Part shown: piece after piece, positions 16,614 to 27,802 of the stretch
Layout of the letters: each line of letters starts with the position of its first letter
How positions within the stretch are numbered: the stretch's first letter is position 1
Position numbers and translations under genes: made by a program
Source: a virus
DNA length: 28,229 nucleotides
Virus record (IMG/VR): IMGVR_UViG_3300022074_000283
Span: 1 to 28,229 of that record
Strand: one strand, 5' to 3'
The notes under the pieces: generated by a model
The model's input: only the letters and a program-made list of their open reading frames with translations
Told to the model about the DNA's origin: nothing
The model's database searches: none

Positions 16614-16656
16614 GGCTCGCAGATATTCTCCCTTCTGCGAGCCTCTTTTTGTGTTT
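16614..16656 (+). terminator. Strong intrinsic terminator
   Basis: GGCTCGCAGA (16614-16623) and TCTGCGAGCC (16634-16643) form a perfect 10-bp stem with a 10-base loop, followed by TCTTTTTGTGTTT. This is a canonical rho-independent terminator ending the 152-aa unit and separating it from the next early operon. Confidence 0.88.
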
Positions 16657-16862: not shown

Positions 16863-16875
16863 GTGCAATAATGCA
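16863..16875 (+). promoter_or_regulatory. Extended -10 promoter element GTGCAATAATGCA (first copy)
   Basis: TGC-AATAAT fits an extended -10 (TGn plus TATAAT with one mismatch). The same 13 bases recur before the YqaJ exonuclease gene (20248-20260), and both lie 28 or 20 bases before a strong Shine-Dalgarno and an early gene. TGCA flanks both sides of ATAA, so it may also be an operator. A -35 (TTGAAT, 16841-16846) is at an unusual distance of 20 bases. Confidence 0.6.
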
Positions 16876-16903
16876 CTACATTGTAGATACAAAGGAGGCA
16901 ATC

Positions 16904-17773
16904 ATGAACGATTTATCTACAACAAACTTCGCCATTCAAACTGAAAACGAATGGTCATTTCCAATCGACACATGCAATCTGTATGCTTCATCAATACATA
17001 CAGATGACACACCAGTGCCAGAAAGTATGGCACGTGCGATTGTTCGCACCGATACCAATCAAGTGCTTGGTGTGCATGGTTCTAAATACAAAGCAATCAA
17101 GCACGATGATGTTGTCAACTCAGTGTTCGAGGCTGTTGCTGCATCAGGCATATCGAATGACTATGACCACAAGGTCAATGTCTTTGATAATGGCGCAAAG
17201 ATGCGCGGCATCATCAGGTTCAATGACCTGACAATCGAGCCAGCTGTCGGTGACACCATTGTATTCCAACTTACATTCTTCAACTCATACGATGGCTCAT
17301 GGGCATTTCAGCAGTCAGCTGAAGGGCTGCGATTGATCTGCCTCAATGGTATGGTTAGTCAATACTCTGTCGCAAAGACATGGCAAAAGCACACAGCCAA
17401 CATCAATGTCAAAGCAAGTGCCGGCAAACTACAAGCTGCGCTTGATGGGTTCTTCCAGAGCAAAGAACAATACCTCAACTGGAAGCGTACCCATGTCAGT
17501 GACCAGATGGCAGAGGATTTCTTCAAGCACAAAGTATGCCGCATCAACAACAACACAAGCACATTCAAATGGAATGAGAAGCGGCTTGATGATCTGATGG
17601 TATGCTGGCGTAATGATAGTCAAGCATTGGGTCACAACAAATGGGCGTTGTACAATGCCTTGACCTACTGGTCATCACATACAGAGGATAACAAATCACC
17701 GGCAAACACACAGCGTTTGCGTGAGGGGATTGTATCCAAAGCTATTGCCAAAGGTAACTGGGAGATTGCGTAA
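16904..17773 (+). CDS. DUF932 phage/plasmid-like protein (289 aa)
   Basis: The ATG at 16904 has AAAGGAGG five bases upstream, giving 289 aa; an upstream in-frame ATG overlaps the promoter element and is rejected. The sequence fits the DUF932 family found in plasmids and phages. Markers include AIVRTDTNQVLGVHGSKYK near the N-terminus, the VFDNGAKMRGIIRF strand, FNSYDGSWAFQ and RLICLNGMV. The molecular role is not established to my knowledge, though the family is commonly found near replication and recombination genes. The next gene starts on its stop codon (TAATG). Confidence 0.85.
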   Translation: MNDLSTTNFAIQTENEWSFPIDTCNLYASSIHTDDTPVPESMARAIVRTDTNQVLGVHGSKYKAIKHDDVVNSVFEAVAASGISNDYDHKVNVFDNGAKMRGIIRFNDLTIEPAVGDTIVFQLTFFNSYDGSWAFQQSAEGLRLICLNGMVSQYSVAKTWQKHTANINVKASAGKLQAALDGFFQSKEQYLNWKRTHVSDQMAEDFFKHKVCRINNNTSTFKWNEKRLDDLMVCWRNDSQALGHNKWALYNALTYWSSHTEDNKSPANTQRLREGIVSKAIAKGNWEIA

Positions 17774-18233: not shown

Positions 18234-18405
18234 AATTCTTGAACTCATACAACTATACAACGCACAGTATGCTGGTGCTTATGCTGGAGATCCTGAAACA
18301 ACCTACGATAAAATACTACAGCGTTGTAATCACAATTTACAAATGGTCGCAGATCATTTTGAATATGCGGATAACACAGAACCGCATGGAGGTAATGATG
18401 AATGA
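18217..18405 (+). CDS. Hypothetical small early protein (62 aa)
   Basis: The frame is open further upstream, but the ATG at 18217 has GGGAGG six bases before it, giving 62 aa: MKLRSEILELIQLYNAQYAG. It is mostly helical and has an acidic end rich in E, D, N and H. It overlaps the 65-aa gene and the DnaA-like gene by a few bases. No domain is recognised. The ribosome binding site makes it very likely real. Confidence 0.65.
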   Translation: MKLRSEILELIQLYNAQYAGAYAGDPETTYDKILQRCNHNLQMVADHFEYADNTEPHGGNDE

Positions 18406-18700
18406 CTACCCAAAACTAAAAGAGATACAACTAGCAGTCAGCAAAGTAACTGGCGTTGGTATGCATGAGCTTATATCAAATCGTAAACAGTCTCGCATAT
18501 ACAATGCACGTTACATGTACTACTTGATGGCATCTGAATGCACGCCAAAGAGTTTCGTACAGATAGGCGATGCTATCTACAAAGATCACACCACAGTTAT
18601 GGTTGGCAAACAAAAAGCCAAGTCAAAACTAGGTGATGTCAACTGGCTTACCCAGCTGAGGCAAGTATGCAACGAATTAGGGTTGCCATTGATTGCATAA
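18398..18700 (+). CDS. Stand-alone DnaA domain IV-like DNA-binding protein (100 aa)
   Basis: The ATG at 18398 (second of two adjacent ATGs) has GGAGG five bases upstream, giving 100 aa. Residues 10-80 match the DNA-binding domain IV of the bacterial initiator DnaA: VSKVTGVGMHELISNRKQSR, a helix with NARYMYYLMASE, then FVQIGDAIY and the signature KDHTTVMVGKQKAK. In DnaA this domain reads the 9-bp DnaA box. The AAA+ ATPase and loader domains are absent. It may mark the phage origin, compete with host DnaA, or repress transcription. The nearest DnaA-box cluster in this window is at 22255-22338. Confidence 0.85.
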   Translation: MNDYPKLKEIQLAVSKVTGVGMHELISNRKQSRIYNARYMYYLMASECTPKSFVQIGDAIYKDHTTVMVGKQKAKSKLGDVNWLTQLRQVCNELGLPLIA

Positions 18701-18720
18701 ATGCAGTATGTTTACTGCAT
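18701..18720 (+). promoter_or_regulatory. Operator-like palindrome ATGCAGTA-TGTT-TACTGCAT
   Basis: Eight-base perfect inverted repeats with a four-base spacer lie exactly at the start of the small HTH gene, directly after the DnaA-like stop codon. Like the two repeated promoter elements it contains TGCA at both sides. It could be an autoregulatory site for one of the two HTH proteins encoded just after. If the HTH gene starts at 18719, the palindrome is wholly upstream of it. Confidence 0.5.
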
Positions 18721-18904
18721 GATTACTTACCTAGACCAACTAATAAAAGCGGCAACAGATAGAAACCTATCTATCATTGCCGCTTTCCGCAAAGCAAATG
18801 TGCCTACCAGCACATACTATCGAACACGTGCTGGTAAGGATTTACGATTGTCAACAGCAAGGAAAGTGATGGATGCAATCACATCCAGTGAAAACCGTAA
18901 ATGA
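18701..18904 (+). CDS. Small HTH DNA-binding protein (67 aa, or 61 aa from 18719)
   Basis: Read from the ATG at 18701 (adjoining TAA of the preceding gene) it has 67 aa. From the ATG at 18719 it has 61, beginning MITYLDQLIKAATDRNLSII. Neither has a good Shine-Dalgarno, so re-initiation after the DnaA-like gene is likely. The part AAFRKANVPTSTYYRTRAG, with the following LRLSTARKVMDAI, looks like the helix-turn-helix of Cro/XRE-type small regulators. The 20-bp palindrome covering its first codons may be its operator. It overlaps the next HTH gene by 32 bases. Confidence 0.65.
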   Translation: MQYVYCMITYLDQLIKAATDRNLSIIAAFRKANVPTSTYYRTRAGKDLRLSTARKVMDAITSSENRK

Positions 18905-19103
18905 TATTTGGACAGATGCCGTAGATAATCTACGAGCTATCCGTAAACAGCGCGGTATTTCACAGGAAGAACTAGCTTTTCTGATGGGTTGTGAACCTTC
19001 TTTTATTCACAAGCTAGAAAGACAAAAGCGATTTCCATCACATCACTTATTGGTAACATGGATACATGCCCTCGAAGCGAAGATCGAAATCAAAACAAAA
19101 TAA
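18873..19103 (+). CDS. XRE/Cro-type HTH transcription regulator (76 aa)
   Basis: A 76-aa protein whose residues about 14-70 form an HTH_3-type domain: NLRAIRKQRGISQEELAFLM, then CEPSFIHKLERQKRFPSH. The spacing QEELAFLMG...SFIHKLE is typical of lambda-repressor-like domains. There is no dimerisation or cleavage domain, so it is Cro-like in size. AAGGAAAG lies near the ATG. It probably controls the early promoters; the palindrome at 18701 and the repeated TGCA-flanked -10 elements are candidate sites. Confidence 0.8.
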   Translation: MQSHPVKTVNDIWTDAVDNLRAIRKQRGISQEELAFLMGCEPSFIHKLERQKRFPSHHLLVTWIHALEAKIEIKTK

Positions 19104-19368
19104 AACTGGTTATGCGGCTGAGTGTCATCACTGCAAAACTGTTACTTCTTACTATGTCATTACAGGTGCTAATAATATTTGGTGTCTGGATTGTTTGGGG
19201 GATCACGGATGGGAACATCTCAGCGCAATAAAGGCAGCTACCATGAAAGATGGTGGGTCAACTGGTTCAAAGAAAACGGTGCCAAAGCGAATCGCCAACC
19301 TCTCTCAGGACAGCTGGGTGGAGACTTTCAAGGTGACATCAAGATCGAAACCAAAGACGGATTTCTGA
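19066..19368 (+). CDS. Possible zinc-ribbon protein overlapping the nuclease gene (up to 100 aa)
   Basis: A frame opened by the ATG at 19066 encodes, between the XRE gene and the nuclease start, CHHC and CLDC separated by 18 residues, a plausible four-cysteine zinc ribbon. A basic N-terminus (MPSKRRSKSKQNKTG) precedes it. The remaining 53 residues or so lie out of frame over the nuclease gene and look non-natural (S/T/K-rich). Either it is a real small gene with a 160-base overlap, or the ribbon is a remnant. It would overlap the XRE gene by 38 bases. There is no strong ribosome binding site. Confidence 0.35.
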   Translation: MPSKRRSKSKQNKTGYAAECHHCKTVTSYYVITGANNIWCLDCLGDHGWEHLSAIKAATMKDGGSTGSKKTVPKRIANLSQDSWVETFKVTSRSKPKTDF

Positions 19369-19544
19369 TTGCTGAATCAAAGTATCAAGCAACAGGCCGA
19401 GGCTTCGGATTACTCACAACAACACATAAGAATCAGCCATCTGATTTGTATCTTCTGAAACAAAAGACCGGGCCGCATTTCATATGTATCGAAGTGAGTA
19501 ATCCTTTAGCAGAAAAAATAGTCGGCTGGATTACTGGGAAGTAA
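19209..19544 (+). CDS. PD-(D/E)XK nuclease, Holliday-junction-resolvase-like (111 aa)
   Basis: Protein of 111 aa from the ATG at 19209. Catalytic pattern: E13 in NKGSYHERWW, D43 in LGGDFQGDI, and E56-x-K58 in LIAESKYQ. This is the order found in archaeal Hjc-type resolvases and related small phage nucleases, where it cuts branched DNA. With the exonuclease, annealase and SSB genes downstream it fits a recombination-based replication scheme. Its last codons (VGWITGK and stop) are part of an intrinsic terminator: the 5' arm of the stem encodes them and the TAA sits in the loop. Confidence 0.8.
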   Translation: MGTSQRNKGSYHERWWVNWFKENGAKANRQPLSGQLGGDFQGDIKIETKDGFLIAESKYQATGRGFGLLTTTHKNQPSDLYLLKQKTGPHFICIEVSNPLAEKIVGWITGK

Positions 19545-19592: not shown

Positions 19593-19910
19593 ATGACTGA
19601 ATCATACGAACTATACAGAAAAGATTCCCCAAGCACAAGTGTTGAAGCTGCTGAAAGTATTGAACCTAACAGGCTCGAAACTCTTGTGTTAGATGCAATC
19701 CGCACATATCACAGCGGATGTATATCAGATGAAGTAATTCGATACATGGCTGTACATCATGGCATTGACCGATACTCTACAGTCACAGCCAGATACGCTG
19801 CACTCTATCGCAAAGGGCTGATTGATTACACAGGTGAAAAGCGCAAAGGTGATAGCGGCAGAAACCAACGTGTTATGGTTCCGGCTGAAAAACAAGGCAG
19901 ACTTCTTTGA
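19593..19910 (+). CDS. Winged-helix DNA-binding protein (105 aa)
   Basis: A 105-aa protein with a GGAGG ribosome binding site 5 bases before the ATG. Residues 28-95 look like a winged helix: LETLVLDAIRTYHSGCISDE, STVTARYAALYRKGLI, then a wing with GEKRKGDSGRNQRVMVP. Short proteins of this type are common in phage early regions, often as regulators or replication accessories. It is downstream of the strong terminator in the nuclease gene, so its expression depends on read-through or on a promoter I cannot see. It overlaps the next gene as TTGA. Confidence 0.7.
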   Translation: MTESYELYRKDSPSTSVEAAESIEPNRLETLVLDAIRTYHSGCISDEVIRYMAVHHGIDRYSTVTARYAALYRKGLIDYTGEKRKGDSGRNQRVMVPAEKQGRLL

Positions 19911-20224
19911 CAACTCCAGAAGCTAGGCAGCTTTGTTATATCTACAGACAACTGGTTGATGACAAATGGCAAGGCCGCAAAGTCCAATCCTCGTTCAGAT
20001 GGGACATGCGGCAGGAGACATTGGCACAGCAGCTGCTTGATCTTGGCTACACGCTAGAATCATTCAAGCAAGATGCCAATCAGCTGCTCGATTATCGACT
20101 GTCACAAAACAAAGACCCAATCTTTTCCTTGAAGTATTTTGTAACTAGAAAGGAAAAGATGGGTCAACCCATAGATGTGCAAGGCATAGTCAACAAAACC
20201 ATTGCATCACTACGAATGAAATAA
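19907..20224 (+). CDS. Hypothetical early protein, TTG start (105 aa)
   Basis: A 105-aa protein reading MTTPEARQLCYIYRQLVDDK from a TTG that overlaps the preceding stop as TTGA, a variant of the usual ATGA coupling. AAGG lies about 11 bases upstream. It is mostly helical and soluble (VQSSFRWDMRQETLAQQLLD...). No domain is recognised. The four-base overlap and the position between the winged-helix gene and the exonuclease promoter support it as real. A loader or accessory protein for replication is possible but unproven. Confidence 0.65.
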   Translation: MTTPEARQLCYIYRQLVDDKWQGRKVQSSFRWDMRQETLAQQLLDLGYTLESFKQDANQLLDYRLSQNKDPIFSLKYFVTRKEKMGQPIDVQGIVNKTIASLRMK

Positions 20225-20280: not shown

Positions 20281-21069
20281 ATGAACAGACAAGGATTCAT
20301 TGGTGGATCTGATCTATACAATATCATGCAAGGCAACTGGCATGATCTGTGGCTAGTCAAGACTGGACGCAAACAGCCAGAAGATTTAAGCCACATATTT
20401 CGTGTGCAGCTGGGGTCATTCACCGAACAGTTCAACATCGATTGGTTCTGTAAAGATACAGGTCACACCATCGAACAGACACAGGTCGAAGTGCAGCGTG
20501 TCATTGGCGGTGTGCCATTCAAAGGCACCATCGATGCTATCGCTCACTCAGAAGAGGGCAAGCAAACTATACTAGAGTGCAAACATACAAGCAGCATGAA
20601 GTCACTTAACGACATGCTTGATTCTTACATGCCGCAGATACAGCTGTACATGACACTGTCACATATTGATAAAGCATACCTGTCAGCAATCTTTGGTAAT
20701 GATATTGGGTACTGTTCTGTAGACTACAGTGAAAGCTGGTTCAAGCCAGTCATCAAACGCTGTCAGAAATTCTGGCAGTGTGTGACTACAGACACAGAAC
20801 CAAGCCATGACATCGATACATGGAAGATTGATTGGTCATCTGTTGCAATCAATAACCTCAAAGCACGTGATGCTAGCAGTGACAATCATTTTATTGCAAT
20901 GGCACATGAGTACATTAACACTGTAGATTCAGCCAAGGCTAATGAATCTGCAAAGAAAGAATTACGCTCACTAATCAGGGATGATGAACGCGAAGTGTTC
21001 TGTGATCTGCTGGCAGTGCGGCGTGACAAGCGCGGCGCATGCCGCATCGTTGTAAACAAGGAGGCATAA
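20281..21069 (+). CDS. YqaJ-type viral recombinase exonuclease (262 aa)
   Basis: A 262-aa PD-(D/E)XK exonuclease of the YqaJ/lambda-Exo type. Motifs: GGSDLYNIM near the N-terminus, E49 in LGSFTEQ, D85 in PFKGTIDAI, E99-x-K101 in ILECKHTS, and YMPQIQLYM with Q119/Q121. It resects 5' ends to leave 3' single strands for the ERF annealase encoded next. It has a strong GGAGG site (5 bases) and its own promoter. The next gene starts one base after its stop, and its Shine-Dalgarno lies inside this gene's final codons. Confidence 0.88.
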   Translation: MNRQGFIGGSDLYNIMQGNWHDLWLVKTGRKQPEDLSHIFRVQLGSFTEQFNIDWFCKDTGHTIEQTQVEVQRVIGGVPFKGTIDAIAHSEEGKQTILECKHTSSMKSLNDMLDSYMPQIQLYMTLSHIDKAYLSAIFGNDIGYCSVDYSESWFKPVIKRCQKFWQCVTTDTEPSHDIDTWKIDWSSVAINNLKARDASSDNHFIAMAHEYINTVDSAKANESAKKELRSLIRDDEREVFCDLLAVRRDKRGACRIVVNKEA

Positions 21070-21070
21070 C

Positions 21071-21538
21071 ATGACAACGAAGAAAGAAAACAAACCACAA
21101 GCCAAGAACATGGCTGAAGCATTGCTTGAGTTCCAGAAGCTGGCAGTATCAGCCAGCAAGGATTCAAAGAACCCACACTTCAAAAGCAGCTATGCTTCGC
21201 TTGAAGCTGTCATAAGTGCGGCTAACGAAGCTACACAGTTTGGCATCTGCTTCACACAAGAGATTGACTTTGAGTTCAATGGTGATGCTGGCATGACGTT
21301 TGTGCGTACCGTACTAATACATGCACCATCTGGTGAGCAACGTACATCACGCACACCCATCAGATCCAAAGACCCAGCTGACCCACAGAAGATGGGCAGC
21401 GGCATTACATATGCCAAGCGGTACGGCTTGCAATCAGCCCTTGGCCTACCATCAGAAGATGATGATGGCAATGAAGCAAGCAAAGCACCAAAGGGTAAAG
21501 TACAACACATCAACCCAAACGATGAAGGAACATGGTAA
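21071..21538 (+). CDS. ERF-family single-strand annealing protein (155 aa)
   Basis: A 155-aa protein with the ERF signature: NPHFKSSYASLEAVISAANE near residue 36 and MGSGITYAKRYGLQSALGLP near residue 115. It anneals complementary single strands produced by the neighbouring exonuclease, which allows recombination-dependent replication or repair. AAGGAGG is about 6 bases upstream, inside the exonuclease gene. The C-terminus (after PSEDDDGNEASK) is a linker-like tail, slightly shorter than usual ERF proteins (about 200 aa). Confidence 0.9.
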   Translation: MTTKKENKPQAKNMAEALLEFQKLAVSASKDSKNPHFKSSYASLEAVISAANEATQFGICFTQEIDFEFNGDAGMTFVRTVLIHAPSGEQRTSRTPIRSKDPADPQKMGSGITYAKRYGLQSALGLPSEDDDGNEASKAPKGKVQHINPNDEGTW

Positions 21539-22134: not shown

Positions 22135-22549
22135 TCCTGTCATACGTCAAGGTCTGACCACGATTATCTTCCCAAGTGTGGCTACAGTGTACCCAACCAC
22201 TGTTGCCACCTGTATAACACTCCAATATCAACTGATCGAAATCTAGATTCTCTTGTATCCACAATGCAAGATCAAAGTTATCCACACCAGCAACCTCGAA
22301 GTCGGCGGCCTCACCCTTCGCATGCTGGCTGTGGATATTCGATCCAATAGCAATGCACAACTCCGGGCTGCGGTAGCCTGACGATACAATAAACGAACCA
22401 AACTCATTGCGTATCGGCTGCAATATATTCTTAGCCAACATCTTCATGCATTTAATATGCTCATCAGTAGGCTCATTAGGTATAGCTTTACGTTCAGCTG
22501 TCTGGCTTTTGACCATCTCAGCTAATGAAAAGTTCTGTGACAGCTTCAT
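22100..22549 (-). CDS. M15-type peptidase endolysin (149 aa)
   Basis: A 149-aa enzyme without a signal peptide. Zinc ligand pattern of peptidase M15A: HAKGEAADFEV (H76, D83) and GWVHCSH (H121; H124 may be extra). VSSGYRSPELC and WIQENLDFDQLI are also typical. It cleaves peptide bridges of the cell wall at the end of infection and needs a holin for access; the holin gene is directly upstream and overlaps as ATGA. This is the last gene of the lysis set. The gene also contains three DnaA-box-like sites. Confidence 0.88.
   Translation of the reverse strand: MKLSQNFSLAEMVKSQTAERKAIPNEPTDEHIKCMKMLAKNILQPIRNEFGSFIVSSGYRSPELCIAIGSNIHSQHAKGEAADFEVAGVDNFDLALWIQENLDFDQLILECYTGGNSGWVHCSHTWEDNRGQTLTYDRTNGYRDGLLRD
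22255..22338. other. Cluster of three DnaA-box-like 9-mers
   Basis: GTATCCACA (22255-22263), the perfect consensus TTATCCACA (22278-22286) and, on the other strand, ATATCCACA (22330-22338) fall within 84 bases, all inside the endolysin gene. They may be coding coincidence, but the phage encodes a DnaA domain IV protein. Elsewhere I noticed only isolated near-matches by eye (for example 8932-8940, 24849-24857). Confidence 0.35.
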
Positions 22550-26963: not shown

Positions 26964-27437
26964 TTATGCTGCTATATCAGTGGCATTAATATCTTCAGCT
27001 ATCTTCCAAGCGTTGCGCCACTCACGAGTGCTTGGTAGCTGTTCTTTGCGGCAGATAACCATCTTTGGTTTGTTGCCTTCATTCCATGTTTTCCAGACGT
27101 GCTGTGGCACATCCTTCTGAATTAGGTATTCGATTGCTTCTTCTTCTGTCATTGCTGGCATTGGTTCTGTCTGGTGCAACAGATAGCCACGAGTATGCTT
27201 CTTGAAGTCAGGCTGCGCTTCGTCCTTTGCCAGTTCCCAGTAGACCCACACAGGTGGCAGGATACCACCCTGCAATGCACACGCCAGCCAGTTAGGGTCA
27301 GGCACAAGTATCTTGGCACACTCATCTACGCTGTCTTCGTACACTACACGATAGTCTGACTGCACACCGTCTATGTTTTCTTTTGCCCAGCACAGACGGT
27401 CAAACAGGTGTGTGCCTTGAAACTCTGGTGTTTGCAT
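26964..27437 (-). CDS. Hypothetical protein in the fibre cluster (157 aa)
   Basis: A 157-aa protein, MQTPEFQGTHLFDRLCWAKE, starting on the GGAGAC/TAATG junction of the upstream GDLA gene. It contains aromatic-rich segments (WVYWELAKDE, VPQHVWKTWNEGNKPKM) and ends PSTREWRNAWKI, a pattern I remember from small proteins next to marine phage fibre genes and related to assembly-chaperone-like domains. It is not itself a GDLA paralogue. The role, perhaps in fibre assembly, is inferred. Confidence 0.6.
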   Translation of the reverse strand: MQTPEFQGTHLFDRLCWAKENIDGVQSDYRVVYEDSVDECAKILVPDPNWLACALQGGILPPVWVYWELAKDEAQPDFKKHTRGYLLHQTEPMPAMTEEEAIEYLIQKDVPQHVWKTWNEGNKPKMVICRKEQLPSTREWRNAWKIAEDINATDIAA

Positions 27438-27802
27438 TATGCTAAGTCTCCGTGGATTGAACAGAATGTATCTGCATCCCTTGCGGTGTAAACATCATCT
27501 CTTTTGAAAGATGTAATCTTAAAATCAGAAGAAACTATTGTAACATTTTTTACACCAGTAAGTTCCGCAGCAATAGCCCCTGTGATTTGGCAATATTCTG
27601 TATTAGCCATACTACTGGACAGATTGAACTGATAGTCTCCTGTGCCGTTATCTACCCCTGTGCTGACGTTTAAGCTGTCTGCTACCACTGCGGCGGTATT
27701 TGCCTTAACCCAAGCCTTCGCACTACCCTCAACAACATAGTTCGTGGCGATTGACCCTGCGGTGCTGTGTTCCAGCGTATCTGCTACAATTTTACCTGCC
27801 AT
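27437..27802 (-). CDS. Fibre-like paralogue 5 of the GDLA array (121 aa)
   Basis: A 121-aa protein, MAGKIVADTLEHSTAGSIAT, with the core GSAKAWVKANTAAVVADSLN, then VSTGVDNGTGDYQFNLSS and the end SIHGDLA. Its middle-to-C-terminal part, YCQITGAIAAELTGVKNVT and onward, differs from all others. The start overlaps the stop of paralogue 6 and uses its GGAGAC as Shine-Dalgarno. It is likely a fibre-type structural protein. Confidence 0.65.
   Translation of the reverse strand: MAGKIVADTLEHSTAGSIATNYVVEGSAKAWVKANTAAVVADSLNVSTGVDNGTGDYQFNLSSSMANTEYCQITGAIAAELTGVKNVTIVSSDFKITSFKRDDVYTARDADTFCSIHGDLA

Follow-up and report, generated by a model that had tools for sequence, protein, structure and literature searches.

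A free-standing DnaA domain IV gene accompanies the C-terminal domain of O-like initiators in a small podovirus and its relatives

DnaA is usually regarded as an ATP-driven initiator, and the plasmid origins of pSC101, P1, F, and RK2, which comprise iterons and a DnaA box, use the DnaA of the host. Stand-alone DnaA proteins of phages are already known, since they have been annotated or published in pelagiphages of the HTVC010P type: DnaA was listed in 2019 among the proteins common to all HTVC010P-related genomes (PMC6811365), and Skadi, which encodes such a protein, was published as a phage without a DNA polymerase (PMC10504331). The examples examined here (HTVC024P gp26, HTVC100P gp21, Skadi-1_28, and HTVC010P 26998-27531) carry a C-terminal PF08299 domain scoring 58-63 bits, and three of the four are annotated as DnaA. 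No functional study of stand-alone phage DnaA proteins was found in the literature searched. GafA and GafY activate the promoters of gene transfer agents in alphaproteobacteria, and GafA is also present in marine roseophages (PMC9638019, PMC11150451, PMC6363796). What is new in the locus described below and in its relatives is the linkage of a DnaA domain to the C-terminal domain (CT) of O-like initiators, the occurrence of origins combining a DnaA box with iterons in related phages, and the loss of the initiator winged helix in the clade of the phage studied.

The stretch of DNA analysed, referred to as the window, belongs to a small marine podovirus; it is a linear record in IMG/VR, 28,229 nucleotides (28.2 kb) long. 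Among cultured phages the nearest is Pelagibacter phage EXVC031P Hodr, whose portal protein has 62% identity to that of the window and which lacks a DnaA domain. At L014:15431-15958 Hodr encodes an HTH protein that ends in a DnaT-like domain (PF17948, 26.8 bits) and whose HTH part matches the product of the window gene at 18873-19103. Although its structural genes are Hodr-like, the window has a G+C content of 42.8%, versus approximately 32% in HTVC010P-type pelagiphages, so that SAR11 may not be the host. At 16614-16650 a T run follows a perfect inverted repeat of 10 bp, probably as an intrinsic terminator 5' of the main early operon. The genes of the module are listed below.

16871..17773, + strand: DUF932 protein, first conserved gene of the module (PF06067, 72.5 bits)
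18398..18700, + strand: stand-alone DnaA domain IV protein, P0001, 100 aa (PF08299, AlphaFold2 model, dN/dS)
18701..18904, + strand: 67-aa ORF adjoining the DnaA-domain gene, with three conserved hairpins in its 5' part
18873..19103, + strand: Cro/C1-type HTH protein of the same operon (HTH_3 and HTH_31)
19179..19544, + strand: RusA-like resolvase candidate (phrog_244, 30 bits)
19593..19910, + strand: small conserved protein, probably a winged helix by its sequence pattern (PHROG_1123, function unknown there)
19907..20224, + strand: CT domain protein, 105 aa, homologous to the C-terminal ~100 aa of O-like initiators
20281..21069, + strand: YqaJ-family exonuclease (PF09588, 36.5 bits)
21071..21538, + strand: ERF single-strand annealing protein (PF04404, 92 bits)

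The resolvase-like ORF and that at 19066-19368 overlap by 190 bp (19179-19368) in different frames, and synonymous variation is suppressed in both, which is consistent with dual coding.

P0001 is DnaA domain IV alone. Its ORF extends from an ATG at 18398, closely preceded by GGAGG, to a stop at 18700, shows coding overlap with its neighbours (8 bp with the upstream one), and has a dN/dS of 0.05 over 10 close relatives (dN 0.023, dS 0.458). The Pfam profile PF08299 (Bac_DnaA_C) matched residues 8-72 with 47.3 bits (E 2e-12), the gathering score being 31.5 bits, and exceeded the cut-off also in all five relatives' contigs searched. Sequence matches in the PDB were DnaA throughout, save a weak one (6xrw_A, E 0.7). 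A fold prediction against domain IV, proposed as a check in an earlier note made from the sequence of the window, gave an AlphaFold2 model, built on 22 related phage proteins, with a pLDDT of 93.5 and with TM scores of 0.86/0.91 and an rmsd of 1.1 Å relative to PDB 1j1v. Its top PDB matches were the Mycobacterium tuberculosis DnaA-DBD with box DNA and Escherichia coli domain IV with DnaA-box DNA, and for the DnaA-DNA crystal structures the TM scores were 0.86-0.91 and the rmsd 1.1-1.2 Å. The E. coli DNA-contact residues R407, D433, H434, T435, T436, and K443 are retained, and substitutions are found at R399 (K), Q408 (Y), and H439 (V). Sequence-specific binding of TTATNCACA by P0001 is predicted. 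The AAA+ domain of DnaA (PF00308) was matched neither in the window nor in 13 other phage records, with 13 of 14 controls positive, and no relatives of P0001 were found in bacterial genomes. The earlier note had described a stand-alone 100-aa domain IV protein with a KDHTTV signature and no ATPase. The Pfam score, the predicted fold, and the contact residues all agree with that description, the signature lies at residues 62-67, the lack of a PF00308 match extends to near-complete relatives, and the structural matches, being to DnaA domain IV, exclude a different HTH family.

A search that covered DNA_pol_A, DNA_pol_B, DnaB helicase, and DnaC/IstB-type loaders found none of them in the window or in 13 other phage records of 25-35 kb. 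The remark in the same note that no polymerase is visible thus holds for DNA_pol_A and DNA_pol_B in the window and in these relatives.

The modules of approximately 80 related viruses were mapped and compared. The slot directly 5' of the exonuclease gene takes several forms among them. In many relatives it holds an O-like initiator of ~200 aa with an HTH_36 winged helix, and full-length CT relatives match the PHROG "replication initiation O-like." In the window clade the slot keeps the last ~100 aa only, i.e., CT (19907-20224), which shows ~40% identity to residues 101-196 in O-like proteins of 196 aa; the alignment of 17 sequences has 24 invariant columns. A genome-wide search detected HTH_36 in none of 10 short-CT contigs (the window and nine relatives, some of them 31-34 kb long) and in all seven tested relatives lacking the DnaA domain but having an HTH_36-type initiator; HTH_36 was found in G006, G007, G009, G012, G033, G034, G038, G039, and G046. 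The O winged helix has been lost in the window clade, and CT and the DnaA domain remain. The loss of the winged helix makes the DnaA domain the leading candidate for recognising the origin in this clade. A free-standing, ATPase-less domain IV may have replaced the origin-recognition half of the initiator, reading DnaA boxes and passing the origin on to a separate, loader-like CT of 105 aa with no O-type winged helix; we propose this replacement tentatively, as possible rather than probable.

Searching with CT alone led to a second, unrelated phage group, N220, in which CT forms the C terminus of a protein of 303-346 aa with a different N terminus and whose modules share no other window gene. 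Against the PDB, the CT fold gave Foldseek E values above 4 and VIA-align Z scores of at most 5.1; one viral protein matched it with a TM score of 0.66 (E 2.5e-3). Because its fold has no clear PDB match, the role ascribed to CT rests on its position in O-like initiators, and CT is a candidate new helicase-recruiting module in place of protein P, the family that occupies the slot in other modules. The idea of protein P as a helicase loader is conjecture drawn from where its gene lies, and database searches gave no match in its favour. Where P is present, its gene and the O-like gene share ~200 bp read in different frames, as at L126:4390-4613, L132:4494-4711, and similar loci. Homology of CT to the C terminus of the HTVC010P O-like protein was rejected (hhalign probability, 0.4%). 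No cultured phage with CT or an N220 initiator was found in INPHARED, and no gene fusions of the DnaA domain with CT were found.

Co-occurrence was counted over distinct modules with enough sequence. The DnaA domain was present in 35 of the 36 CT-positive modules, namely, 15/15 with short CT, 5/6 with CT plus HTH_36, and 15/15 with CT plus another N terminus, and in 2 of the 31 with family P in the slot; CT and P were mutually exclusive in all modules. Whole-contig PF08299 searches agreed with these counts, the one exception on the CT side being the phage lineage L220 (= L123/G033), which has CT and no DnaA domain. When modules were clustered at 70% identity and scored by majority, the DnaA domain accompanied CT in 9/9 clusters versus 0/15 for P (p 8e-7), a p-value that overstates independence because the modules are related by descent. 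Three deep subtypes of the DnaA domain, A, B, and C, occur with CT, and A and B swap within one CT clade. The independent facts behind the linkage are two CT backgrounds (N220 and HTH_36/short) and these three subtypes. The idea that the DnaA domain is a one-for-one substitute for the O winged helix was rejected: both are present in L046, L035, and the N220 group, and therefore the tighter link is to CT versus P.

In the N220 phages DnaA boxes were found in seven-fold excess (24 versus 3.3 expected), and they lie inside the O-like gene. This gene carries TGTGGATAA, which includes a perfect TTATCCACA, followed by three ACAAGN6CTTGT palindromes (spacings, 33/34/45 and 24 bp) and then by AT-rich DNA. 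A perfect TTATCCACA was present in 18 of 21 distinct N220 O-like genes (mean 0.48 and maximum 3 after synonymous-codon shuffling), in none of 55 other initiator genes, and in none of 28 O-like genes of phages lacking the DnaA domain. IMG/VR was then scanned by the DNA pattern alone, with any gap of 4 to 34 bp between box and iteron allowed, and 47 distinct CT loci were returned, including L219:4850-4960 and L201:3900-4030. The gap was 10-12 bp in 34 of them, 14 bp in 1, 22 bp in 4, and 32-33 bp in 8, so that it equalled one, two, or three helical turns in 46 of the 47. The DnaA domain was found in 32 of these loci; in the remaining 15, no more than ~3.2 kb of sequence precedes the site, which is how far away the DnaA-domain gene can lie. 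Because the first iteron is translated in different frames among the phages (TSSSLC or HKPQLV), it is the DNA and not the protein that is conserved there. Read at the DNA level, the N220 O-like gene contains a putative lambda-like origin, with the box phased with the iterons. Modules lacking both CT and the DnaA domain had fewer boxes than expected (12 versus 23).

In the window itself there was no enrichment or cluster of DnaA boxes (three exact TTATNCACA versus 2.2 expected). No DnaA box was found in the CT gene of the short-CT clade, and the ACAAGN6CTTGT palindrome of the N220 group was found in none of 19 short-CT genes, in a search centred on that motif. One exact box, at 19003-19011 in the HTH gene 18873-19103, is kept in 8 of 11 clade members. 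An origin in the M15 peptidase gene, where three TATCCACA box cores lie within 84 bp (22255-22338), was rejected: the cores follow conserved amino acid motifs, 33 relatives showed no suppression at synonymous sites, and close relatives with the DnaA domain lack the cores.

The region directly 3' of the DnaA-domain gene, 18695-18845, had a fold z-score of -6.56 and forms three strong hairpins, one of which holds the start codon of the next ORF. The three stems are kept in the window clade, with only a shortened second stem in 1 of 11 members; most variation falls in the loops, L012 shows one two-sided change, and the gene carrying the hairpins shows half the usual synonymous variation. The hairpins are absent in other DnaA-domain clades, and a search of Rfam gave no match. 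Possible roles are that of an origin hairpin and that of an RNA control element.

We consider it probable that P0001 is a free-standing reader of DnaA boxes that works with CT and helps start phage replication through the host replisome. P0001 would bind DnaA-type origin sites without ATP, oligomerisation, or strand opening, and CT, as the C-terminal half of a lambda-O-like initiator, would most likely bring the host helicase or primosome. In the related phages, the DnaA domain and CT would act beside an intact, iteron-binding O winged helix; in the window clade the initiator would be split, with the DnaA domain as its origin-recognition half. The host replisome would then copy the genome, with YqaJ/ERF recombination serving the later stages. 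For the window, we infer DNA binding by P0001, its contact with CT, recruitment of the host helicase, and the location of an origin. The note's suggestion that the protein may guide host replication proteins to an origin of the phage receives strong, albeit indirect, support from the linkage to CT and from the boxes in helical register at the origins of relatives; its other suggestion, titration of host DnaA activity, found no specific support.

The boxes could instead be used by host DnaA in the N220 phages, as happens at plasmid origins made up of iterons and a DnaA box; the phage domain IV, having no AAA+ domain with which to open DNA, would be limited to competition for boxes and, by occupying them in a dominant-negative or titrating role, would turn off early theta replication or shut the host oriC. 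Boxes would in that case be expected in O-like genes of phages lacking the domain, where a perfect TTATCCACA was found in 0/28, and the linkage to CT and not to P fits a positive role in initiation better, so we regard this explanation as unlikely. Still less likely is that P0001 is a transcription regulator. GafY and the N terminus of GafA are DNA-binding domains similar to that of DnaA, and in some genomes they have separate genes; however, neither GafZ nor DUF6456 was detected in the window or in 13 other records (the Caulobacter control was positive), the gene sits in a recombination and replication module and tracks the initiator type, and the base-contact residues of P0001 are DnaA-like, whereas T435 and V437 are changed in GafA. 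That the window's origin is recognised by a different product of the module (that of 19593-19910 or the HTH proteins), with the DnaA domain as an auxiliary nucleoid-type or recombination factor, we find very unlikely: although the winged-helix-like 19593-19910 product, a possible alternative DNA-binding partner, is encoded directly 5' of CT and no DnaA-box origin was found in the window, its family, which is found whether or not the DnaA domain is present and alongside CT, P, or full O-like proteins, cannot explain the DnaA-CT linkage.

If, as we favour, these phages use the DNA-reading domain only, then marking of an origin is separable from its opening, and the DnaA-box code of the host has been adopted for viral origins. 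The many stand-alone "DnaA" genes of abundant marine phages, so far unexplained, would gain a role that can be tested, and box-iteron spacings of 11, 22, or 33 bp would be a signature for finding phage origins in metagenomes.

With domain IV of bacterial DnaA (1j1v, 3pvp) P0001 has in common the fold, KDHTTV, D433/H434/T435, and R407, whereas domains I-III are missing, and with them the ATPase and the helicase-binding domain. The DnaA proteins of HTVC010P-type phages likewise have a PF08299 domain and lie in modules with nuclease and annealing-protein genes, but they are 170-186 aa long with an N-terminal extension of ~90 aa, as opposed to the 100 aa of domain IV only in P0001; they form a separate deep branch from P0001 in the tree, and their phages have an O-like winged-helix protein and no detected CT homologue. 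GafA and GafY resemble P0001 in being small DnaA-like DNA-binding domains without an ATPase, and differ in context, which here is a replication module with no DUF6456/GafZ partner. The lambda O/P system shares with the relatives of the window the O-like initiator and the iterons lying within the O gene, and with other relatives a second protein encoded in the next slot; the window, by contrast, has no O winged helix, and the place of P is taken by a DnaA box-reading protein and CT. As in the iteron origins of pSC101, P1, F, and RK2, a DnaA box lies at a fixed helical distance from the iterons in the N220 phages; unlike those plasmids, the phage encodes its own DnaA box-reading domain.
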